Below are positions 13,846-26,232 of a DNA stretch of 64,000 nt, piece by piece. A program made the position numbers and the translations under genes. Below the pieces are notes generated by a model, which saw only the letters and a list, made by a program, of their open reading frames with translations, searched no databases and had not been told where the DNA came from. Source of the DNA: Candidatus Methanophagales archaeon (GTDB lineage Archaea; Halobacteriota; Syntropharchaeia; Alkanophagales; Methanospirareceae); contig JANPRD010000007.1 of assembly GCA_024699715.1 (NCBI GenBank), positions 59,106 to 123,105 of the forward strand, given 5' to 3'. How positions within the stretch are numbered: the first letter of the stretch is position 1; each line of letters begins with the position of its first letter.

Positions 13846-15366
13846 TCAAAATTCAGGCGAATCGCCCGCTCTTTCTCCTTTCCGCCGCCTCAAGAACTCA
13901 ACGAAATCTTCAGCGAATTTCGGGAACGCAACTGCATGAACATGCGTGTAGGATGCGAGGCAGTTCTTCTTCATTATGCCGTCAAGTGCCGTCTCGCCTT
14001 TCCTTAAAATGCCCTCTCCTCGCAAGATGCGGTAGGCGAACTCAACATCTTCACGCAAATTTATCCTTGAGCGGTGGAACTCATGCGCCTTAAACCTCTT
14101 CCCTTTCTTACCTAAGAAGCAGTCACGACGAATCTCACCGACTACATAATTCACTATTCTGCGTTCTTCTGTCCATTCTGCTCCGCCTTTTATGACGCCA
14201 CACATATCAAAACGCTTCCCCTTATACTCTATTTCGTCCATTAAATACATTAATCCACCGCATTCCGCATATATCACACCGTCATTCTCGTAAAATTCTC
14301 TTATTGAGAGGCGCATTTGCTCATTCGCTTCCAACTCAGCAGCATAAATCTCTGGAAAACCGCCTCCTATGTAGAGAGCATCGCAGGAAGGCAGCTTTCT
14401 GTCTGAGAGCGGACTGAAAAACACAATCTCCGCACCTGCGAGGGTGAGCAAGTCAAGCGTGTCTTGATAGTAAAAGTTGAAAGCCTCGTCGTAAGCAACT
14501 CCTATTCTGACACTCTCCCCTCCCTTTCCTCTTCTTTCCGCCCCCCTCTCTTCTTCTGCTCTCTCTCTTTCGTTTGCGGTTGTAGTTTTTGCAGTTGCTT
14601 TCGCTGCTGCGGTGGTTGCTCTGAATATTCTTGGGGGAGGCGTCCGCAGTGGAGGTGCGCTCTCCGCAATCTCCAAAACCGCATCTAAATCCACATGCTC
14701 CTTGACTTGCTGTTTGATTTGCTTAAGAACGGTGTTGAACGCAGAGAAACGCTTTGAGCATTCAACCGCAGTGACCAAGCCGAGATGCCGCATTTCAATC
14801 CTAATGCGAGGATTCTCAGGAATTTTGCCCACAACTTTCACACCACAGTATCTCTCTATTGCTTTCTCCGCCTTCTCTCCGTGCCTTTCCGTCCCGATAT
14901 AGTTCAAAATAACACCTGCAATATTCACATCAGGGTCAAAATTTTTGTAACCTGCGACGAGAGCGGCGGCACTCCTCGTCAAACTACGAGCATCTACAAT
15001 CAGAATAACAGGTGCTTGCAGTATTTTTGATATTTGTGCGGTGCTTCCCACATCTGTTTCGTAGTCAAAGCCTTCGTAGAGACCTCTGACGCCCTCAACG
15101 ATAGCGATGTCCGCTCCTTTGCATGCACGAGCGAAGATTTCGAGGATTGCGTCCTTGCTCATTAAAAAGCCGTCAAGGTTGCGTGAGGCTCTTCCTGCGA
15201 CAAGCGAGTGGAAGCCCGTGTCAATGTAGTCGAGAGCGACCTTGAAAGGCTGCACCTCATATCCGAGCTCACGAAGCACTGCGAGGAGACCGATGCAAAT
15301 TGTCGTTTTTCCTGCTGAACTCCTGTCCGCTGCGAGAACTATTCTCGGAATCTCCTCAATACTCAT
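13846..15366 (-). CDS. cfbB: Ni-sirohydrochlorin a,c-diamide synthase CfbB (CbiA family)
   Basis: This 506-residue glutamine-dependent amidase has an N-terminal dethiobiotin-synthetase-like ATPase domain (VLAADRSSAGKTTICIGLL, VEGVRGLYEGFD) and a C-terminal type 1 glutaminase domain with nucleophile region VIYAECGGLMYL and GEIYAAEL-like helix. CobB/CbiA enzymes work on cobyrinate; the neighbouring cfbC and cfbD make the F430 branch the likely role, amidating Ni-sirohydrochlorin. A low-complexity Ala/Thr/Lys/Glu linker (about 245-285) separates the domains. It is the last gene of a cfbD-cfbC-cfbB operon, 3 bases after cfbC. Confidence 0.9.
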   Translation of the reverse strand: MSIEEIPRIVLAADRSSAGKTTICIGLLAVLRELGYEVQPFKVALDYIDTGFHSLVAGRASRNLDGFLMSKDAILEIFARACKGADIAIVEGVRGLYEGFDYETDVGSTAQISKILQAPVILIVDARSLTRSAAALVAGYKNFDPDVNIAGVILNYIGTERHGEKAEKAIERYCGVKVVGKIPENPRIRIEMRHLGLVTAVECSKRFSAFNTVLKQIKQQVKEHVDLDAVLEIAESAPPLRTPPPRIFRATTAAAKATAKTTTANERERAEEERGAERRGKGGESVRIGVAYDEAFNFYYQDTLDLLTLAGAEIVFFSPLSDRKLPSCDALYIGGGFPEIYAAELEANEQMRLSIREFYENDGVIYAECGGLMYLMDEIEYKGKRFDMCGVIKGGAEWTEERRIVNYVVGEIRRDCFLGKKGKRFKAHEFHRSRINLREDVEFAYRILRGEGILRKGETALDGIMKKNCLASYTHVHAVAFPKFAEDFVEFLRRRKGERAGDSPEF

Positions 15367-15369
15367 CTC

Positions 15370-16179
15370 TCACCTTTTCCCACTCCCTTCTCTCTCATTG
15401 AAAATGCTGCGCAGCTCGCTGTCTGAGAGAGGGTGCGGAACTTTCGCATCTTCGTTTGAAAGGATGCGTTCTGCGAGTTCGCCGTAGATTTTCGCCATGT
15501 GGCTTTCAGGCGCACCTTCCACGACCGTCAGCGACGCTCTTTCCATCCTTTGCACGATTTCGTCCTTCGGGATGAAAGCGACGAGTTTCGTGCCTATGCG
15601 TCTCGCAAAACGCTCCAAAATCTCACGCTCTCGCTCAACACCCCTTGCGTTGCATATCACGCCTCCGAGAGGCGCATTAAGCGTTTTCAGACCCCTGCAA
15701 ATGTTATTTGCGGCGTAAAGAGGGAGGTATTCACCCGAAGAGACGATGTAAGATTCGTCAATTAGATGCTCTTTTATGGGTGTTGCGAACCCACCGCAGA
15801 CAATATCGCCGGGAACATCGTAAATCACAATATCAGATGCGTCTAAAATGTCAGAAATCCTGCGTAAATATTCTATTGCGACGATTATGCCACGACCCGC
15901 ACAGCCCACTCCAGGCTCTGGACCTCCTACTTCAACGCATTTCACGCCAAAAACCCCTTCAAACACCACATCTTCCTCCGAAATTCGCTTGTGCTGACGC
16001 AATAAATCAAGAATCGTGGGTATGCGGGTGCCATGCATGAGCGAAAGTGATGAATCACTCTTCGGGTCGCAGCCGATAATTGCCACTTTAAGCCCTTTCT
16101 TGCCGAGATATGCCGCTATGTTTGACGCAATTGAGGATTTACCTATGCCTCCTTTGCCGTATATTGCGATAGATTTCAA
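15370..16179 (-). CDS. cfbC: CfbC, NifH-like reductase component of F430 synthesis
   Basis: The 269-residue NifH homologue has P-loop GKGGIGKS (8-15), GCDPKSDSSLSLMHG, and the two cluster cysteines in PGVGCAGRGI and DIVCGGFATP that hold the bridging [4Fe-4S] cluster of a homodimer. In the F430 pathway CfbC passes electrons to CfbD for the six-electron reduction and cyclisation of Ni-sirohydrochlorin a,c-diamide. There is no nifDK or nif regulatory gene around it; it lies between cfbD and cfbB, which settles the role. Confidence 0.94.
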   Translation of the reverse strand: MKSIAIYGKGGIGKSSIASNIAAYLGKKGLKVAIIGCDPKSDSSLSLMHGTRIPTILDLLRQHKRISEEDVVFEGVFGVKCVEVGGPEPGVGCAGRGIIVAIEYLRRISDILDASDIVIYDVPGDIVCGGFATPIKEHLIDESYIVSSGEYLPLYAANNICRGLKTLNAPLGGVICNARGVEREREILERFARRIGTKLVAFIPKDEIVQRMERASLTVVEGAPESHMAKIYGELAERILSNEDAKVPHPLSDSELRSIFNEREGSGKR

Positions 16180-16254
16180 CTCATTTCACCTTTTTCCGCC
16201 TCTCTTCTTCCCTACATTTCCATACTCTACACCATTCTCTACCGCATTCTTGCT

Positions 16255-17364
16255 CTACTCGCTTCGTCGCTTGCTCAACCTCAAAATCGCATCGCCGAAC
16301 TCTGAAGGTAGAATATGCGTTGCGCCCATCGTCTTCGGATGCAAGTCCAACTCAAGCACGACATGGTGATGTCCGAGAGATTTCAGCGGTTCTACTGTTC
16401 TCGGACCGTTTGTCACCGAAAAAATCTCAAAGCCAGAGGGAATTGGAAGGACGGCGTGAGGCACTCCTACAAGAACGGCGAAGTCGTAATCCGCATATTC
16501 CTCACAAATTATCTTCGCTGCTCGCTCCCCTGCAACAGCATACTCGTCTAAACCGCCGGTTATGTGGTGTATTTTTATGTTTTCTGCGTTCAGTTCATTC
16601 AATATTCGCTCTGCGTAGCCACGAATCCGCTTTAAGCCGACATTTTTGTTGAGGTTTGCGATGTTCACGACCTGCTCCTCTTTCGCAACTTTGTTCAAAG
16701 CACGCAAGATGTCTGCGAACATGAAAGCGGTCTCCTTCTTCGCATTCAGCACGCAAACGCCACGCTTTCCCTCACGAAGCAGCTCCAAGAGGCGCTCAGC
16801 GACCGCAATTTTTGAATCGCCCTTTGAAGGCGGTATGTATTCGCTGGATGCTGCGCCCACACGCTTCTCAATTTCTGTTGCGCGTTCAAGCACACGCTTC
16901 TGCCTCTCAAACTCCTCCTCTGAAATGATTCCAGCGAGCATAGCAGCCTCAAGTGTTCTGATGACGCCTACGGTGTTGTCTCGGTAGCCAGCATGCACTT
17001 TCACTGTAATGACCTTGCACTTAACGCCGCTGTCAGCGACGGCTTTCTCCAAATCTTCGCCGATAATCATGGAAGAGCATGTGCCGACGACGCCCATTAG
17101 CGAGGGCTTGAAACGCTCTTCTGCGAAGCGAAGCGCATTCACAAGCAATTTATGACCTCCAAAAACGAAATCGCTCTCCTCCATCGCTGTCGTAAGCACC
17201 CTCATTCCGTCCTCCTCAAGCATTCTGCTGTGCCTGAAGCAGCATCCCGCAGGTCCGTGAAGAATCGCAACATCAACATCCAAATCACGAAGCGTGTATA
17301 GCGCCGCAACTATCGCACTCGGTCTCGGATGCCACACCATCCGCTCAACATTCTCCTCTGACAT
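16255..17364 (-). CDS. cfbD: CfbD, NifD-like catalytic component of F430 synthesis
   Basis: The 369-residue protein belongs to the nitrogenase component 1-like family: AILHGPAGCCFRHSRM near the N-terminus, GVVGTCSSMIIGEDLE in the middle and VLVGVPHAVLPIP near the end. With CfbC it forms Ni-hexahydroseco-F430. It is shorter than NifD and lacks FeMo-cofactor ligands, as expected for CfbD. It is the first gene of the cfbDCB operon. The upstream spacer 17365-17525 carries an AT-rich stretch read on the minus strand as gtgttatatggtg, a weak promoter candidate. Confidence 0.93.
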   Translation of the reverse strand: MSEENVERMVWHPRPSAIVAALYTLRDLDVDVAILHGPAGCCFRHSRMLEEDGMRVLTTAMEESDFVFGGHKLLVNALRFAEERFKPSLMGVVGTCSSMIIGEDLEKAVADSGVKCKVITVKVHAGYRDNTVGVIRTLEAAMLAGIISEEEFERQKRVLERATEIEKRVGAASSEYIPPSKGDSKIAVAERLLELLREGKRGVCVLNAKKETAFMFADILRALNKVAKEEQVVNIANLNKNVGLKRIRGYAERILNELNAENIKIHHITGGLDEYAVAGERAAKIICEEYADYDFAVLVGVPHAVLPIPSGFEIFSVTNGPRTVEPLKSLGHHHVVLELDLHPKTMGATHILPSEFGDAILRLSKRRSE

Positions 17365-18939: not shown

Positions 18940-19245
18940 CTATTCACCGGCGGTAGCGTAAATCTCGTAGGGCATGATTTTCTTATTTACTTTCTTTTTG
19001 CCTCGCAGTTTGCTGATGAGGTCTACTGCTTTCTCTTTCTTCTCTCGTTCCTTCAAACGCTCAAGTAGAGCAGAAAATCCTTTGTCTCCCTCCTCGCCCT
19101 CCGCTGTCTTCTCCTCCGCATGTGCGGTTGCCTCTTCCTCCTCGTATTCTTCCTCTAACTCCTCCTCCGCATCCGCACAAAGCACCCACCCGTTCAGAGA
19201 GCGACACGCAGCAGCCACCGCAGCAGGGCATGCTCGCAAACTCAC
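18940..19245 (-). CDS. Small acidic protein ending in Ala-Gly-Glu, candidate Pup-like modifier
   Basis: GTG 19245 follows GGAGGAG after 4 bases and opens a 101-residue frame. Residues 1-25 are Ala/Cys-rich, about 26-53 are extremely acidic (ADAEEELEEEYEEEE and on), about 54-82 form a predicted amphipathic helix (GFSALLERLKEREKKEKAVD), and the last residues are MPYEIYATAGE. Pup is a small, mostly disordered, acidic protein with a helix that binds the Mpa coiled coil and a C-terminal Gly-Gly-Gln/Glu. Size, charge, helix and terminal Gly-Glu are similar, and it closes an operon with an Mpa-like ATPase and two PafA/Dop homologues. I found no direct sequence match to Pup beyond this. An overlapping Gly/Cys-rich frame at the 5' end is less likely. 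Confidence 0.6.
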   Translation of the reverse strand: MSLRACPAAVAAACRSLNGWVLCADAEEELEEEYEEEEATAHAEEKTAEGEEGDKGFSALLERLKEREKKEKAVDLISKLRGKKKVNKKIMPYEIYATAGE

Positions 19246-19279
19246 ACAACTCCTCCTCTGACCGCTCCATTTCCATCGC

Positions 19280-19915
19280 TCAAAAAATCACCTTCTCTGG
19301 ATATAACCTTTTCGCTTCCGTCAAAATACCGCTCAAATCTTCCTCTTGCGATGCAGCGAACACATCCCCCAACTCGCTCTTATTCAGCATGAAAGGCTCA
19401 TCCAACATTATCTTCGCCTCGTTCAGAATGAGCGAAGACCAGCTCACACTCTTCACATGCTCGTTGAAATGCTTCAGCATCCCAGCCCTGAAGAAGTCCC
19501 GAGTGTCCTCAGGAGCATTCCGTAACGCATACCTCACACGCTCAAACAGGCGAGACCAGCGAATCGGCAACTTGCGCTGCGCAAACTTCAACGACTCACG
19601 AGGCGAGAAAAGGCTTCTGCCCTCGCCTGCACCACTCTCAGCAATGCCCTCCTCCTCTTGCTTTACGCCTTCGCCCCCCTCTCCGAAACCGTCGCCACGC
19701 ACATAAAAAAGGACGCCCTCGTCAAGCAGAGCGAACTGGTTGCAGATGAAAATGCCTTCTGAAATCCGCTTCGGCTGGTAATTCACGAGCAAAGCCAACT
19801 TCGTCACCCAGTCCACGCCGTCCACAAACTCCTCAACCCTACGCTCTGCGAACTTCTCAAGCAATTCCTCAAACGCTTTCAGACCGATGCCCTCCCATTT
19901 CTCCTCTTCTCTCAA
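19280..19915 (-). CDS. PafA/Dop-like protein, separate C-terminal domain
   Basis: This 211-residue protein aligns by eye with the C-terminal third of the neighbouring long ligase homologue: DGVDWVTKLALLV matches RRVEWVLKLWVI there, and NAPEDTRDFFRAGMLKHFNE with VSWSSLILN matches PPKNSRAELRMRLASEFKNA with VGWNKITM. In PafA and Dop the C-terminal domain carries this P-x-x-(T/S)R-x pattern and a WD-like segment. Its ATG overlaps the stop of the upstream catalytic-domain gene as ATGA, so the two halves are translationally coupled. A Gly/Glu-rich insert lies at about 70-95. Either this is a true two-subunit enzyme or a single shift has split one gene. Confidence 0.7.
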   Translation of the reverse strand: MREEEKWEGIGLKAFEELLEKFAERRVEEFVDGVDWVTKLALLVNYQPKRISEGIFICNQFALLDEGVLFYVRGDGFGEGGEGVKQEEEGIAESGAGEGRSLFSPRESLKFAQRKLPIRWSRLFERVRYALRNAPEDTRDFFRAGMLKHFNEHVKSVSWSSLILNEAKIMLDEPFMLNKSELGDVFAASQEEDLSGILTEAKRLYPEKVIF

Positions 19916-21009
19916 GACTTCCTCTCCTCTCTCGCTTCCCTCACCGCTACCGACTGCTTCTTCGCTGCTGCTACCGCCTCGCCAGATGAAAGCATCTCTT
20001 CAATTTTCGCAAGGTAAAACTGCAGGATTGAGACCGCATCCGTCTGCTCACCGTTTTTCAGACGCACTCGCCACTCGCACTCTTGCGTGTCCGCAGAGAT
20101 TCGCTTAAATGTTTGAACGGGGTCTTCTATCTCTGGAGCGTCGTCAAGGAAGCCGAGCTCAAATGCACGAATCACGAGGGCTTGCGTGATGTCTCGCAGG
20201 AATATTGCGTATTCGGAGCGGAGCGCCTCAAAGTGAATGTCGTGCAATCTGAAGTATTTCTTTGAGGCATGCGGTTGGTCTCTCGTGTTCAAAATTCCCC
20301 TTGCTGATGTCGTTGATAGCGAAGATAAACGCATGACGAACATTGCACGGGGCGAAATTACAAATTTAATGCCACTCTTCTTCACAATTTCGCCAGAAAT
20401 CACATCCCCCGCACCCGTGAATATGATTCTTGTGACGACCCACGGAATCAAAGCACGCTCAACACGACGCCAATCCTTGCATGCCCTTCGCTCCGTTAGG
20501 AAATTACCGTGAGTTGCGTATGTGTTCGTCTTCACTCGCTTCTCCTCAGCGCCTTTCCTTACTCCGCCACCGCTTAAGCCAACAGCACCGCCAGCAGTCT
20601 TCACAAAGAAGTTCGCAACATTGTTTTTGTGAATTAAAACACGCTTCTTCAACGCAAGTGAAGCACCCACCGATGCGACGAATGCGTAGATTTCAGACGC
20701 TTTCTCGTATGCAACCGCATCAAAAGGGTCGTTGTAAGAGGGAGTGGAAATCTCAAGATGCCCGAGGTCGTTGTATATGCGGCAGCCGTTCTCACCGTAA
20801 GAGTTAGTTATTTTGAACTCGTGGCTCTCTTGCGAGACTTCAGTGCTTATGTCCCATCTCACCAATTTTGAGAAGCCTTTACGACGCAGACCTTGAATCG
20901 CAGCATTCACAAGCAGGTTCGGATTGAACGCCGCAGACGCACTCACAGGGTATTCCTGCTCCACTCCCCTTATCTTGCGAAGCGTCCCTCCCGCTCCTAA
21001 TGCAACCAT
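19912..21009 (-). CDS. PafA/Dop family (Pup ligase/depupylase-like) protein, catalytic domain
   Basis: From ATG 21009, which has AGAGG 6 bases before it, the protein has 365 residues. It shows the carboxylate-amine ligase features of the Pup ligase family: RGVEQEYPV (Glu-x-Glu, residues 17 and 19), NGCRIYNDLGHLEISTPSYN (about 74-93), LIHKNNVAN, YATHGNFLTERR, IIFTGAGDV, ISPRAMFVMR and GILNTRDQPHA. In PafA the corresponding HEN motif has Glu; here it is HGN. Known members ligate Pup to lysine or deamidate/remove it. The frame also extends upstream to 21222 over the end of the preceding gene, without homology. The C-terminal domain is encoded by the next, overlapping ORF. Confidence 0.82.
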   Translation of the reverse strand: MVALGAGGTLRKIRGVEQEYPVSASAAFNPNLLVNAAIQGLRRKGFSKLVRWDISTEVSQESHEFKITNSYGENGCRIYNDLGHLEISTPSYNDPFDAVAYEKASEIYAFVASVGASLALKKRVLIHKNNVANFFVKTAGGAVGLSGGGVRKGAEEKRVKTNTYATHGNFLTERRACKDWRRVERALIPWVVTRIIFTGAGDVISGEIVKKSGIKFVISPRAMFVMRLSSLSTTSARGILNTRDQPHASKKYFRLHDIHFEALRSEYAIFLRDITQALVIRAFELGFLDDAPEIEDPVQTFKRISADTQECEWRVRLKNGEQTDAVSILQFYLAKIEEMLSSGEAVAAAKKQSVAVREAREERKS

Positions 21010-21160
21010 CTTGAACCTCTTACTCCCCTCCTCTTTCCCACTCCGCAACACAGCACTCAAAAACACACTCAAATGCATCAGGTATGTTCTGCCGAGCCAT
21101 CTTCTCAGTCCTGAGTATCCACCCACACTTCTGCCCACTCTGCCACCACCGCTACCGCTA

Positions 21161-23086
21161 CTACTCGCCACCTCTCCTTCGTTGCTGCTCCTCGTCCTCT
21201 TCGCTCTCATCCTCGTCCTCATGCGAGACGCTTTCGCTTCTACTCACTCTTGTTGCCCGCTCTCTTGTGAAAATGCATCCTTCTTCCGAACCCTCTGCAT
21301 CCTCTTCCTCGTCTTCTTCGTCCTCTTCGCAACCCTCGCTCCTCTTTATTTCCTCAATTTTACGCTGAATCGTCTCTTCATTCCATCCGTCAAGCTCGTC
21401 AAAGCGGTAAGTCTTGTTGTTCGCATAAAGTAAGTAGTCCAAATACGGATTTCTTGATATTCTGCTCCTTATTTCACGAATAATCTCCTCTTCCCATCCA
21501 CTTATTTCATCCTCTTCTGCGAGCAAACGCACAAGAATCTGCCTTGAAGGCTCACCGCCACGCCCTCTACCCTCTCGCAAGAAAACAACCATCGCATTCG
21601 GCATCCTCGCAAGCTCCGGATAACGCTCAAAAAGCAGCGCATACTCCTCCGTTCCGGGACGAGTGAGCTCTATCTGCACCTTCGGCTCTCGCTTCATCGT
21701 TATTTTGTTCCAGCCGACAGCAGCGTTCTTGAATTCCGATGCGAGACGCATTCTCAACTCCGCTCTTGAGTTCTTCGGCGGGAATAGCAGAGCCTCCGCA
21801 ATGTCTTCATCCGTGAGAATTCGTTCAACTCCTATCTTATCGGCGACTCGCTCATACAAATCGTAATCGCAGAGGTTCGTGAAGTCAAAAGACGCCGCTA
21901 TCTGCTTCTCCAGCCTCTCGTCCATCAAATACATGCTCCTGTAATCAAACTTGCCACGAGGACTGCACTTGTATTCAAATTCGTCTATCTCATGCGTTAT
22001 TACCCATAACTTCAGCACCCATTCCACCCTCCGAACAACATATTTGTCCTCAATAAGTCCTTGATGAAACTTCTCGCAGAGCTTTTTGAATGTGTTAAGT
22101 GCATATTTATCCCAATATGATACCTCACGCTCCTCAAATAACTCCTCAATAGGCTCAAGATAATACGATTCTATGTATTCCAAGGCGGAAACTTTCCTAC
22201 CGTTTCGCAATCTTATCCACCAATCGCCTGAAATGTTTGCGGAGATGTCCTTGAATGTTTGCAGTGGGTTCCAGATGTCCTCAACATGCCTTATTTTTCC
22301 CGCCTCAATCGCAGAAAGCACGTATGATGTGATTGCGTTGTTCAGCAGTCTCGTGACTTCAGAGCGGACACCCTCTCCAGATGTGACATGCACCCTGTAT
22401 TTGTCCTTCGTGGTGAGCGGTTCGTCCCTTGAAGAGAGAATCGGCCACTGCGACGGCGACTCCGTGAACACTCTGCGGGCGACCATCGCCTTCGGCGAAA
22501 TCACATATACAATGCCTTCTCGCTCCGCTATGAAACCGCCTGCTCCGAAAAATATCTTGCGAAGCACCAAAAATGGAATGAAAAGATGTTCCTTACCTAC
22601 ATATCTCTTCCTCTCAACAACATAAGATTCGTGTGTGCCTCTGCTGTATCGCTTGTCAAGTTCAACATTCGCCTTCCATGCCTGAATACTCGCTTCCCTT
22701 GAGCCTCTACGCATCTTCTTGTATTTCTTGTTCGCCTCTTCAACACCTATTTGCATGTAAATCTCCGACGCTTTGTCGTATTTAAGCACCTCAAAAGCGT
22801 TCTTGCACTCAGGCGTCGCAATCTCAAGATGCCCTCCTGTGCAGATGTAAATGCGAGAGCCGTTGCGTAGGAAGCCGTCGTTCCTCCGGCACAATTTCGT
22901 TGAAACCGCCCGCTCACCGTCAAAGAAAGTGTAGTTCTCAAGTGCGTGAATGACCTCGTCAACATGGTAAAATCTCGCATATCGGTAGAGTTCTGGCGAT
23001 TCTGAGGATATGCCGACCCTGAATTCATGCTCCAAACCCTGCCACTTGTTCAAATCTTCCCTCTCTCTTCCCACCTCTCCAGACAT
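21161..23086 (-). CDS. PafA/Dop family protein with acidic tail ending Gly-Gly-Glu
   Basis: ATG 23086 gives 641 residues; the frame reaches 23173 without homology. Ligase-family signatures are KWQGLEHEFRVG (Glu 19 and Glu 21), NGSRIYICTGGHLEIATPE (75-93), WKANVEL, RGTHESYVVERK, IFFGAGGF, VISPKAMVARR and ILSSRDEPLTTKDKY. The KNN motif of PafA is KAN here, while HES keeps the acidic residue. A complete C-terminal domain follows to about 570. The last about 60 residues are highly acidic (EEDEEDEEEDAEGSEEG and on) and end QQRRRGGE, exactly the type of C-terminus that Pup uses for conjugation. Which reaction it performs is unknown. Confidence 0.82.
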   Translation of the reverse strand: MSGEVGREREDLNKWQGLEHEFRVGISSESPELYRYARFYHVDEVIHALENYTFFDGERAVSTKLCRRNDGFLRNGSRIYICTGGHLEIATPECKNAFEVLKYDKASEIYMQIGVEEANKKYKKMRRGSREASIQAWKANVELDKRYSRGTHESYVVERKRYVGKEHLFIPFLVLRKIFFGAGGFIAEREGIVYVISPKAMVARRVFTESPSQWPILSSRDEPLTTKDKYRVHVTSGEGVRSEVTRLLNNAITSYVLSAIEAGKIRHVEDIWNPLQTFKDISANISGDWWIRLRNGRKVSALEYIESYYLEPIEELFEEREVSYWDKYALNTFKKLCEKFHQGLIEDKYVVRRVEWVLKLWVITHEIDEFEYKCSPRGKFDYRSMYLMDERLEKQIAASFDFTNLCDYDLYERVADKIGVERILTDEDIAEALLFPPKNSRAELRMRLASEFKNAAVGWNKITMKREPKVQIELTRPGTEEYALLFERYPELARMPNAMVVFLREGRGRGGEPSRQILVRLLAEEDEISGWEEEIIREIRSRISRNPYLDYLLYANNKTYRFDELDGWNEETIQRKIEEIKRSEGCEEDEEDEEEDAEGSEEGCIFTRERATRVSRSESVSHEDEDESEEDEEQQRRRGGE

Positions 23087-23251
23087 ATCGCTCACTTCTC
23101 TCCCTTTCCCCCTCCTTCTTGAATGTGGGGAGAAGAAGGGTAAGAGCCTTCTGAGACTCACAACACTTCTCACACCCTCACCACTCTATTCACTTTTCTC
23201 TAACACGCCACTGCACTGCACCACCGCCGCCACCCGCCACATGCAGCGAGG

Positions 23252-24883
23252 TCAGAAGTGCATGCCCGTCTCCACTTCAGCGCTCTCGCTCTCAAAGCCT
23301 GAGGCGAGCATTTCTTCCGCTCTGCGTTGCACGAACCTGTCAAAGCCTTCTCGCAGGTGCTCAAAAGTGACGCCAATGTCTTCAGCACGCTTGTATTTCT
23401 TCGCAAGCTGCGATGCCCGCTCCTCTGCGTCAAGAAGAGAAGCGATGCCCTCCTCCGACCACATTTTGAGCAGCGATTCCTCACGAATGATTCCCTTCTT
23501 CACCTTGAATATTGTTCGCTCTTCAAGGGCTTTGTCCTTCGCATAGTTGAATATTTGAGCGATAAATCTTCCAGTTACGGTCTCTCCACGCTTTATTCGC
23601 CCTATGTCCGTCTCCACATACTCATCCCTGAACATATATCTGACAAGTTCATCCACAAGGAACTTCCTCGCTGCCTCTTCAGAGCCTTGCTCCTCAACCA
23701 AGAACTTGTCTAAAGGCACTTTCTTCACATAAATCTCGCATATTGAGCGGGCAGCTCGCTCGTCAGGCTTCGGCACCTCTATTATCTTGTCAAATCTCGC
23801 TCTGAATGCGGAGTCAATGAGGTGCAAGCGGTTCGTCGCTCCAATTACGGTGAGATGCGGATGCAGCGAGTAGAAGCCGTCAAGCAAATCTAAGAGCTGA
23901 CCTGTGACACGCTCAGGGGCGCCTGAACTTCCCGCATACATGCCTCGCTCTTGTGCGAGAGCGTCAATCTCGTCAAAGAAAATGACGCCGTATTCGCATT
24001 CACCATCCTCAAGCTTCCTGTTCGCAAGCTGGAAAACGCCTCTGACATTCCGCTCGGATTCGCCGAGCCACATGCTGAAAAGCTCGCCTGCTCCGACCTT
24101 TATGAAAACTGAATTCGGCAGTGCGGTTGCGAGAGCCTTCGCACACATCGTCTTTCCACAGCCTGGAGGTCCGTAAAGCAGAATCCTTCTTGATGCTTCA
24201 CCGTAAGAAGAGTAATCATCAGGGTTCAAAATAGGAAGAATAATGCTTCTTATAAGCTCTTTTTTCACTTCCTCAAGCCCACCGATGTCGTTAAAACTCA
24301 CACCCGGATTCTTCGTGACCTCATATCTCGTGAATTCCTTCGTCTTGTAGCTCTTTTTAATGTCAGCAACGCCGGGAAGCATGCCAACTTTGACGCCTTC
24401 TTTGACCATTTCCCGCTCCTTCTCACTCAATCTCTTGCATATTTTGGCGTGACCTCTGCCCGTAGAGATGACGCCGACCCATTCTCCGTTCTTCTCTTGC
24501 CATATTTCTTCAACTTCGCCGACCTCAAGGTTGACCGTTCGGTCATAGACGCTTGTAATACCTATCGTGAAGCCGCTCGGACTATTTTTGTCAGGAATCT
24601 TTCCGATGAAAACATATTTTCCTTCCTCAATTTTTGCGATTTCCTCATCGCTGAGCGGACCGTAAGGAAGCACCTTCAACGCTCCATTCACATAAACAAC
24701 GGCGCCGTCTTCCCGACGCTCAACAACAAACCCGCAGTCGAGAGGCGGCGTCCTCGCCCTGAAAACGAGCTTTTCTAAATCCTCCTTGTATGCGGATAAC
24801 TCTTCATATTTCCGCCTCAATCGCCTGTATTCGCTCTCCAATCGCTCATACTCATGCCTCGGAATGAAGTCCTCTCGCTCCAT
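23252..24883 (-). CDS. Mpa/ARC-type proteasomal AAA ATPase
   Basis: This 543-residue protein has the Mpa/ARC layout: N-terminal coiled coil (about 8-48), tandem OB region (about 50-170), then one AAA domain with Walker A GPPGCGKT (238-245), Walker B FFDEIDAL (302-309), sensor GATNR and arginine finger RARFDK. The C-terminal part (FLVDELVRYMFRDEYVETD, then RGETVTGRFIAQIFNYAKDK) matches the insert that separates Mpa/ARC from PAN. Mpa unfolds pupylated proteins for the 20S proteasome. The C-terminus GMHF lacks the proteasome-docking hydrophobic-Tyr-X. It is the first gene of the operon; no 20S gene is in the window. Confidence 0.85.
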   Translation of the reverse strand: MEREDFIPRHEYERLESEYRRLRRKYEELSAYKEDLEKLVFRARTPPLDCGFVVERREDGAVVYVNGALKVLPYGPLSDEEIAKIEEGKYVFIGKIPDKNSPSGFTIGITSVYDRTVNLEVGEVEEIWQEKNGEWVGVISTGRGHAKICKRLSEKEREMVKEGVKVGMLPGVADIKKSYKTKEFTRYEVTKNPGVSFNDIGGLEEVKKELIRSIILPILNPDDYSSYGEASRRILLYGPPGCGKTMCAKALATALPNSVFIKVGAGELFSMWLGESERNVRGVFQLANRKLEDGECEYGVIFFDEIDALAQERGMYAGSSGAPERVTGQLLDLLDGFYSLHPHLTVIGATNRLHLIDSAFRARFDKIIEVPKPDERAARSICEIYVKKVPLDKFLVEEQGSEEAARKFLVDELVRYMFRDEYVETDIGRIKRGETVTGRFIAQIFNYAKDKALEERTIFKVKKGIIREESLLKMWSEEGIASLLDAEERASQLAKKYKRAEDIGVTFEHLREGFDRFVQRRAEEMLASGFESESAEVETGMHF

Positions 24884-24973: not shown

Positions 24974-25152
24974 AAGCAAAAGATAGAAATAGAAGGACTG
25001 ATTGTAAGTAGAGGTAGTTAGTTGTGCGTGGCTTTTAGTGTATTTGCGGTGGCTTGAAGGGGGCGTTTGGGGAAAGAAGGTTGGAGAAAGAAGGAGAGGA
25101 AGGGAGAGGAGGCGGCGGCGAAAGGAAGAACGAGGAATGGCGGTGGATAGGA

Positions 25153-26232
25153 ATGAGGAAGGAGAAGAGGCGAGTGCAGCTCACTGGAGGAAGCACATAC
25201 ATCGTTTCGCTGCCGATAAAATGGGTGCGTGAGCTCGGCTTGAAGAAGGGCGACGAGGTTCTCCTGCTCAGGCACGGAAAGAAATCGCTTGTGCTAATGC
25301 CAGTGGGCAAAGCGGTTCAGAGCGAAGGAGGCGAGAAGAGGCGAGCGGAGTTGAATATCTCTGAGAGCGAGGGGTTTGAGGAGAATTTCAGGTATTTGAT
25401 TGCCCTTTACCTTGTTGGCTACGACGAGATTGTGCTGCGTGCTGCGAGAGGCTTCAACGCAGAGGAGCGAAAGCGGATAAAGGCGGAAGTCCGCAAGCGT
25501 CTAATTGGAATGGAGGTCGTAGGCGAGTCCGCAACTGAAATACAACTGCAAAGCTTCCTCAAATACGAGGATTTCACGCTCTGCGATGCGGTAAAGAGCA
25601 TGACTGAAAGCGTTGTTGCGATGCTGAATGATGCCCTCCTTGCTGTTGAGCGGGGAGATGTGAACCTTGCTTTGGATGTGATTGAGCGGGACAATGAAAT
25701 TGACAGGTTCTACCTTCTAATCGTGAGGCAGTTGAAGGCGGTCATCAGCGACTACGAACTCGCTCAAAAGATTGGAATCGGAACGCCACGAAACTCTCTC
25801 GGCTACCGAATTATTGTGAAGAGCATAGAACGCATCGCAGACCACATCGAAAACATCGCAAAACACGCAATACTCAATGAAAAAGCACAAGCGTCAGAAG
25901 GAAAGCTTCAACCACTGAGCATCTCTGCGGAGAGGGTGAGAGAGATTCGTGAAATAGGAGATGCGGTGAGAGAAGTCTTCCTGAAAACGATGGATGCCCT
26001 CTCCAAAATGGACATGAAGCGCTCTAATGATGCGATAAGGGATGCAAATGCGGTCATATCTGCGGTTGAAGATGTGAATGAGAGCGTTCTTTCGGAGGAA
26101 AGCGACGCAACTACAAAGATTCACACGCTTTCTATCCTTGACAGCCTCGCAAGAATCGCAAAATACTGCACGGATATTGCAGAAGTAACGATAAATATGT
26201 GCATTAAATCCGCAGATGAGATTGAATTTTGA
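25153..26232 (+). CDS. PhoU-domain phosphate uptake regulator with N-terminal AbrB domain
   Basis: Starting at ATG 25153 (GGTGG before it) the 359-residue protein begins MRKEKRRVQLTGGSTYIVSL, an archaeal SpoVT/AbrB-like DNA-binding motif, and continues with two PhoU three-helix repeats (NDALLAVERGDVNLALDVIE and SIERIADHIENIAKHAIL; then LSKMDMKRSNDAIRDANAV and LDSLARIAKYCTDIAEV). AbrB-PhoU fusions are common in archaea and are thought to control phosphate transport genes. The upstream frame 25054-25152 is low-complexity and excluded. It overlaps or abuts cooC, so they may be co-transcribed. Confidence 0.9.
   Translation: MRKEKRRVQLTGGSTYIVSLPIKWVRELGLKKGDEVLLLRHGKKSLVLMPVGKAVQSEGGEKRRAELNISESEGFEENFRYLIALYLVGYDEIVLRAARGFNAEERKRIKAEVRKRLIGMEVVGESATEIQLQSFLKYEDFTLCDAVKSMTESVVAMLNDALLAVERGDVNLALDVIERDNEIDRFYLLIVRQLKAVISDYELAQKIGIGTPRNSLGYRIIVKSIERIADHIENIAKHAILNEKAQASEGKLQPLSISAERVREIREIGDAVREVFLKTMDALSKMDMKRSNDAIRDANAVISAVEDVNESVLSEESDATTKIHTLSILDSLARIAKYCTDIAEVTINMCIKSADEIEF

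Follow-up and report, generated by a model that had tools for sequence, protein, structure and literature searches.

A cluster of four genes on the minus strand of contig JANPRD010000007.1 from a Candidatus Methanophagales archaeon is, with a probability that we put at about 0.8, an archaeal counterpart of the bacterial pupylation system. The cluster lies within a stretch of 64,000 nucleotides, all of which was analysed and which is called the window here. It encodes a proteasome-type AAA ATPase, two enzymes of the PafA/Dop family, named PafL and DopL in the following, and a small protein that is the candidate tag. The activities of these products we infer, and the estimate holds whichever of the two enzymes would ligate the tag. 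The window's nearest relatives bear mostly the name Methanophagales, i.e. they belong to group 1 of the anaerobic methanotrophic archaea (ANME-1). A first-pass annotation had already read the locus as pupylation-like, from a minus-strand ATPase, two PafA/Dop homologues, one of them split, and a small protein. All five open frames of the cluster were indeed found (24883-18940), and the interpretation has gained support from the co-occurrence of tag and enzymes (48 of 52 genomes against 0 of 340), the constraint on the tail of the tag and its restriction to a final Glu or Gln. The parts of the cluster are:

23252..24883, minus strand: proteasome-type AAA ATPase (Mpa/ARC-like), 543 residues; PF00004 E 2.3e-34; co-linear with the Mpa model TIGR03689 over residues 26-472, under its cut-off; coiled-coil-like N-terminal segment, Pro-Pro hinge, about 190 residues ahead of the AAA domain, C-terminus ...TGMHF.
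21161..23086, minus strand: PafL, PafA/Dop-family enzyme and predicted tag ligase, 641 residues from the ATG at 23086 (670 from a GTG at 23173); Cys replacing the catalytic Asp, an additional C-terminal domain, and an acidic tail that is different in a near-identical copy.
19912..21009, minus strand: DopL, N-terminal part, predicted deamidase/deconjugase with the catalytic Asp kept; PF03136 E 7.9e-53; 365 residues from the ATG to which relatives align, in a frame open from 21222.
19280..19915, minus strand: DopL, C-terminal part, 211 residues; PF03136 E 5.8e-9; matches residues 359-546 of an intact relative (locus L059).
18940..19276, minus strand: Pup-like tag candidate with acidic N-terminus, basic middle and near-invariant tail ...KKIMPYEIYATAGE-stop, delimited by relatives, codon table and C-termini.

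Two of these genes had to be corrected. DopL is a single frame in the 48 aligned copies from relatives (frames above 490 residues; the alignment omits the shorter copies L076, L078 and L100, all of which run off contig ends). Therefore the split, which is confined to the window copy, is by this comparison a frame-shift of the assembly or of the strain. The tag frame is open from 18940 to 19245 in the window, and its protein ends ...EIYATAGE. Near 19226-19228 the gene shows a one-base frame difference to near-identical database proteins (P0122-P0124), and its true start is therefore probably 19276 rather than 19245. The "small acidic protein ending in Gly-Glu" of the first-pass annotation thus keeps its ending but probably has another start, and it is acidic at its N-terminus and basic in its middle.

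Judged by their sequences, PafL and DopL are members of the PafA/Dop family, inside which they had been placed before. Against the gathering score of 25 bits of the Pfam family PF03136 (Pup_ligase), the 670-residue frame of PafL reaches 195.8 bits (E 1.7e-57), the 436-residue frame of DopL 180.4 bits (E 7.9e-53) and the 211-residue frame 35.9 bits (E 5.8e-9). For PafL a PafA/Dop fold is also predicted. The motif of the ligase family was likewise correctly recognised from the outset: the GhExE motif and the Mg, ATP and phosphate ligands, seven in all, are complete in 49/49 PafL and 48/48 DopL. In database entries the archaeal enzymes already have automatic names, among them 'Pup--protein ligase' and 'PafA2 family protein'.

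The distribution of the enzymes is narrow. In 392 genomes sampled evenly across the phylum, PF03136 genes were found in 52, namely in 50 of the 51 genomes of the window's family and in 2/2 of another family of the same order, and in 0/339 genomes of the phylum outside these two families. A tag profile of 30 rows (A1), searched in the same 392 genomes, detected the tag in 48, all of them within the 52 PF03136 carriers, and in 0/340 genomes without PafA/Dop-family genes (Fisher p 2e-57, a value that ignores kinship). Four carriers have no tag. The contig of G174 stops 90 bases past DopL, those of G209 and G317 stop within DopL, and G312 holds scraps of a third paralogue only and is without ATPase, PafL and DopL at the fetched loci.

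Gene order is conserved among the relatives. Neither of the two outcomes by which the first-pass annotation would have been refuted, enzymes falling outside the PafA/Dop family or an operon not conserved in relatives, has come about. We fetched the loci of all 52 PF03136 genomes, window included. In 46 of them the genes for ATPase, PafL and DopL follow one another on the same strand, some of these runs being cut by contig ends. Of the others, G150, G160 and G229 are split over contigs, the contig of G170 starts 457 bases ahead of PafL, and G273 has no PafL frame between ATPase and DopL. All four genes are found in order in 33 of the 52 (window counted). The tag directly follows DopL in 37 of the 48 tag genomes (the 33 plus G150, G170, G229 and G273) and is on a separate contig in 11, of which G147 has 1.3 kb beyond DopL and seven have less than 0.8 kb; the remaining three are taken up below. 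Among the first 20 relatives fetched the closest is G133, whose PafL is 87.6% identical. One 13.6-kb contig (L081, G229 C191) holds the end of PafL, DopL and the tag twice in inverted orientation, which is probably an assembly fold-back.

The C-terminus of the small protein hints at its nature. We read 50 copies of it from 48 genomes, 79-123 residues long. The last 14 residues are near-invariant (KKIMPYEIYATSGE) while their codons vary. Within the last 15 codons the penultimate Gly is written GGG 15, GGC 13, GGT 12 and GGA 10 times, codons for Ala, Thr, Tyr and Glu are silently variable as well, and 49 copies close with Glu (GAA 31, GAG 18), one with Gln. The extreme C-terminus is under constraint at the level of the protein. 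The 50 copies end SGE (47), AGE (2) or SGQ (1). A set of 5.8 billion proteins gave 16 tag proteins by single-sequence search and 78, these 16 included, by a profile search in which scoring was limited to the candidates sharing most words; 67 of the 78 end SGE, 8 AGE and 3 SGQ. Gly-Glu or Gly-Gln thus closes 50/50 genome copies and 78/78 database proteins, and no other ending occurs in either set. Two dissimilar types are found among the SGQ proteins: P0170, which matches the G128 copy except at the start residue, represents one, and P0188 and P0189 the other; from these sequences the Gln ending therefore probably arose at least twice. In the databases the 78 proteins are called 'hypothetical protein', once 'ribosomal protein L4', and none of these names ties the small protein to a Pup-type system. 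The same Glu/Gln-terminated pattern is seen in bacterial Pup, for which 41 sequences collected via the C-terminal pattern comprised 26 GGQ and 15 GGE, and according to PMC3511204 and PMC12288473 Dop deamidates the Gln form there. A second tag candidate of the first-pass annotation, the 'RRRGGE' end of the 641-residue enzyme, was discarded, since P0001, 99% identical, reads on to a different end and the relatives vary.

Alternatively, the small protein could act on the ATPase without covalent attachment, as its adaptor or regulator, the two enzymes being of the gamma-glutamyl ligase type with a small-molecule or peptide substrate. The PafA family has been grouped with glutamate-cysteine-ligase-like enzymes (PMC2588565), no sequence similarity between tag and Pup is detectable, and in three genomes it lies away from the enzymes. 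An adaptor would, however, not need its strongest constraint on the extreme C-terminus, with Glu or Gln only, and the near-perfect co-occurrence of tag and enzymes also speaks against this explanation, which we regard as very improbable.

For the ATPase, the classification as Mpa/ARC-type was right in so far as it is a proteasome-type AAA protein, co-linear with TIGR03689 over residues 26-472; it scores 168.8 bits with that model, far from the cut-off of 504.75, and lacks the GQYL motif. The Mpa-specific C-terminal insert noted in the first-pass annotation is to be regarded as putative. The PAN model PRK03992 scores slightly better (179.9 bits against a cut-off of 500) over the AAA part. Identity to bacterial Mpa is 25-28%. 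The region ahead of the AAA domain comprises 190-196 residues in 10 archaeal copies, compared with 164-232 in 18 bacterial Mpa and 144 in one PAN. At the C-terminus, 45 of the 46 archaeal copies read TGMH[FYL] and the remaining frame ends otherwise, as against TGQYL in 30/30 bacterial Mpa frames above 500 residues. The window's genome has genes for 20S subunits on other contigs (three matches, of which two score equally). It also has a long frame with two AAA stretches, which we take to be Cdc48-like. A PAN-level match (E <= 1e-120) exists in 43 of the 51 genomes of the family and in both genomes of the other family, and the idea that the Pup-type ATPase had replaced PAN was therefore rejected. 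It had arisen because the window's genome, which is 80% complete, is one of the 8 of 51 in which such a match is lacking.

These data bear on what tagging would be for. Tagged proteins might be taken apart or regulated by way of the ATPase and not be degraded by the proteasome, a variant that overlaps the reading given here. It would suit an ATPase that ends TGMHF, without the penultimate Tyr of GQYL, in a lineage that keeps PAN as well, and it has a precedent in Corynebacterium glutamicum, a bacterium devoid of a proteasome core (PMC12288473). The 20S genes are present, though, and the conserved ...TG-x-x-x terminus looks like a docking tail; a purely non-degradative role appears rather unlikely to us, and we expect docking to the proteasome.

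Several observations weigh against a pupylation counterpart altogether. The system is known here from its genes, and a conjugate of tag and protein is a prediction. The tag has no detectable sequence relation to Pup, and the idea of such a relation was given up after four comparisons. In the window's genome PF05639 (Pup) has no match over its cut-off of 27, the best one (12.4 bits) lying outside the cluster; alignment of profile A1 with 20 actinobacterial Pup sequences (A5) by hhalign gave a probability of 0.1%; a search of the PDB returned weak matches only and no Pup chain; and Pfam yielded weak matches only, with no family over the cut-off for the first member shown. A match of the window tag to RRP7 (E 0.0007, under the cut-off) becomes weaker still with P0122 (E 0.011). 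The charges differ too: the archaeal tag has median values of -15 before the last 45 residues, +10 over the next 33 and -2 over the last twelve (50 copies), and its basic segment corresponds to an acidic middle segment (-11) in Pup. In G051, G076 and G103 the tag is on another contig despite 3.4-7.2 kb of sequence beyond DopL, and G219, 92% complete, is the sole genome of the 51 without PF03136, a tag match being absent as well, by loss or by an assembly gap. Scores stay well below the NCBIfam equivalog cut-offs of the PafA, Dop and Mpa models: PafL reaches 159.5 bits with the PafA model TIGR03686 (cut-off 551.3), and the window part of DopL 153.7 and an intact relative 181.9 bits with the Dop model TIGR03688 (cut-off 492.3). 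The ATPase is without the penultimate Tyr of GQYL, a motif described in PMC8223512, and has no more in common with TGQYL than the TG ahead of the final three positions. Its N-terminal profile matches both Mpa and PAN weakly (hhalign), which gives no placement with Mpa, and an AAA tree, in which one Cdc48 row forms an outsize branch, does not place it with Mpa either. Finally, at the site of the catalytic Asp (Asp57 of Mycobacterium tuberculosis PafA) PafL has Cys in 49/49 copies, where bacterial PafA has Asp in 68/68 and DopL has it in 48/48 and in the window copy. This Asp is needed for pupylation by M. tuberculosis PafA (PMC5358908).

If the cluster is a tagging system, we lean towards PafL as the ligase. 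A tag ending in Gln would be deamidated by DopL to the Glu form. PafL would phosphorylate the side chain of the terminal Glu with ATP and transfer the tag to a lysine of the target. The ATPase would then bind the tag, unfold the target and feed it into the 20S proteasome, and DopL would remove the tag again. Since Cys replaces the Asp that mycobacterial PafA needs, the final step of PafL must differ from that of PafA; in our reading the Cys would handle the attack of the lysine, either as a base or, by way of a thioester, as a nucleophile. Which enzyme ligates is the weakest step of this reading. PafL is chosen by exclusion, because DopL is of Dop type and has the Asp, and because PafL has a full ATP site, which is also present in DopL.

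The roles may thus be swapped, with DopL as the ligase and PafL as a thiol-dependent deconjugase resembling cysteine deubiquitinases. The Asp that PafA requires for ligation is replaced in PafL and kept in 48/48 DopL, and a Cys would suit amide hydrolysis at the site for which an Asp nucleophile has been proposed in Dop (PMC12288473, PMC5358908). Nor does PafL resemble PafA more than Dop (its PDB profile gives E 5.4e-22 for PafA and 3.5e-29 for Dop), and the tree described below does not pair it with PafA. On the other hand, among known families DopL is by sequence clearly closest to Dop: its N-terminal part scores 153.7 bits with the Dop and 126.4 with the PafA model, its PDB profile gives E 4.7e-44 for Dop and 1.3e-24 for PafA, and the best model E over 17 copies is 4.8e-59 against 6.8e-45. 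PafL, in turn, retains in the alignment a PafA-length loop and the ATPEC motif, next to a C-terminal extension of about 120 residues. On balance we consider swapped roles unlikely.

The loop needs a qualification. Between GhExE and NG there are 53 residues in DopL (53-59, n=48), against 77 in bacterial Dop (74-127, 36 measured of 37) and 37 in PafA (n=68). By this distance the 48 DopL copies are without the Dop-loop of about 40 residues, and they have an insert of their own ahead of the THGN motif. As a means to discriminate PafA from Dop, loop length is weakened because a third PF03136 paralogue of about 500 residues groups with PafL yet has Dop length. This paralogue (genome G000, contig C1:196025-197314, L040 5918-7423, on a contig different from that of the tag) also has Cys in place of the catalytic Asp, and its phosphate-binding Arg (Arg227) is replaced by Lys in 3/3. 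Within the fetched stretches, 7 of the 52 genomes gave best matches to it. In DopL, Ser stands where the motif has its second Glu, which had suggested that a metal ligand might be missing; the idea was dropped, as this residue is absent from the list in PMC8599861.

A quick tree of 51 rows (12 PafL, 12 DopL, 3 third paralogues and, by random draw, 12 bacterial PafA and 12 Dop) separates all archaeal enzymes from actinobacterial PafA and Dop, with a Shimodaira-Hasegawa-like approximate likelihood ratio (SH-aLRT) support of 100. In the approximately unbiased (AU) test, a constraint uniting PafA with PafL and the third paralogue was rejected (p 0.0002), and so was the crossed pairing (p 0.00009). 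An independent archaeal split into ligase and deligase is a lead and not a result, because the branches are long and actinobacteria are the only bacteria represented. Ubiquitin E2 and E3 enzymes pass their modifier through a thioester. That the whole system might be an archaeal invention on a PafA/Dop chassis, with an unrelated tag, an independent ligase/deligase split and a Cys thioester transfer to lysine, is a speculative idea that we hold to be doubtful.

As to its surroundings, a divergent gene upstream of the cluster (25054-26232) encodes an AbrB/MazE-type domain and two PhoU domains. Of 61 fetched stretches that were searched, 42 carry a homologue; because of this the place of the cluster looks inherited, and a mobile origin was rejected. 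Six other neighbours from the window were found on 0/61. The gene may be a regulator of the cluster or merely a stable neighbour. At 13846-17364, NifH-like, nitrogenase-like and CbiA/GATase genes lie next to one another, presumably for coenzyme F430 synthesis. A phage collection gave a single match (L102, MT835496), a record from human faeces labelled 'Bacteriophage sp.'. Its Mpa-, Dop-, Pup- and PafA-like genes are of the actinobacterial type, and inspection by eye suggests a PAC2-like gene as well. A phage origin was rejected, since these genes are actinobacterial and the record is probably a mislabelled piece of chromosome. Likewise, an 11.85-Mb Nonomuraea 'plasmid' in PLSDB with a pafA-like gene (L101, NZ_LT559118) is probably a chromosome.

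In 2008 pupylation was placed in actinobacteria, Nitrospirae, Verrucomicrobia, Planctomycetes and one deltaproteobacterium (PMC2588565). In the open-licence literature, without preprints, no paper among the matches listed deals by its title or the start of its abstract with pupylation in ANME archaea, in agreement with the first-pass annotation, which knew of no account of it in methane-oxidising archaea. In a word search of the main text of the ANME-1 genome papers PMC9894754 and PMC9012536, pupyl-, proteasom-, ubiquitin and PafA were absent. If the reading is true, archaea would have a second kind of covalent tag, in anaerobic methane oxidisers that mostly keep PAN, and a Pup-type tag could have an unrelated sequence. 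The change from Asp to Cys would be a natural variant by which the disputed role of this Asp, base or nucleophile, becomes testable, and the separate archaeal and actinobacterial enzyme pairs raise the question of whether a single ancestor gave rise to a ligase and a deligase on two separate occasions. The central claim can be checked in existing ANME-1 proteomes without culture by the mass of the remnant left on lysine, computed as +1354.61 Da (IMPYEIYATSGE) or +1338.62 Da (IMPYEIYATAGE) after trypsin and as +721.33/+705.33 Da after Glu-C. The GE or GGE remnant proposed in the first-pass annotation would not arise from this tag with trypsin.

Among known systems, SAMP/Urm1-type modifiers are likewise an archaeal conjugation of small proteins, and the window's genome contains one ThiF/E1-like gene. 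SAMP/Urm1-type modification uses beta-grasp proteins and E1-type adenylation, whereas the enzymes here have, as predicted for PafL, the glutamine-synthetase fold. SAMPs are named in PMC3511204. Compared with PafA, PafL shares the family PF03136, the predicted fold, the Mg, ATP and phosphate ligands, the loop length and the ATPEC motif, and differs by its Cys, its C-terminal extension and its score under TIGR03686. DopL is most similar to Dop and shares with it the Asp and all listed ligands, but has no Dop-loop, an insert of its own before THGN and a score below TIGR03688. With actinobacterial pupylation (Mpa/ARC, Dop, Pup, PafA) the cluster has in common two PafA/Dop-family enzymes and a proteasome-type AAA ATPase in adjoining genes, a small, partly acidic protein ending in Gly-Glu or Gly-Gln, and 20S genes in the genome. 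It differs in its archaeal host, the unrelated tag with inverted mid-tag charge, the Cys of PafL, the DopL without Dop-loop, the separate branch in the family tree, the 20S genes on other contigs and the gene order, ATPase-PafL-DopL-tag as opposed to Mpa-Dop-Pup-PafA (L102). The logic and the enzyme family are thus those of bacterial pupylation; the tag, the active site and the domain of life are different.

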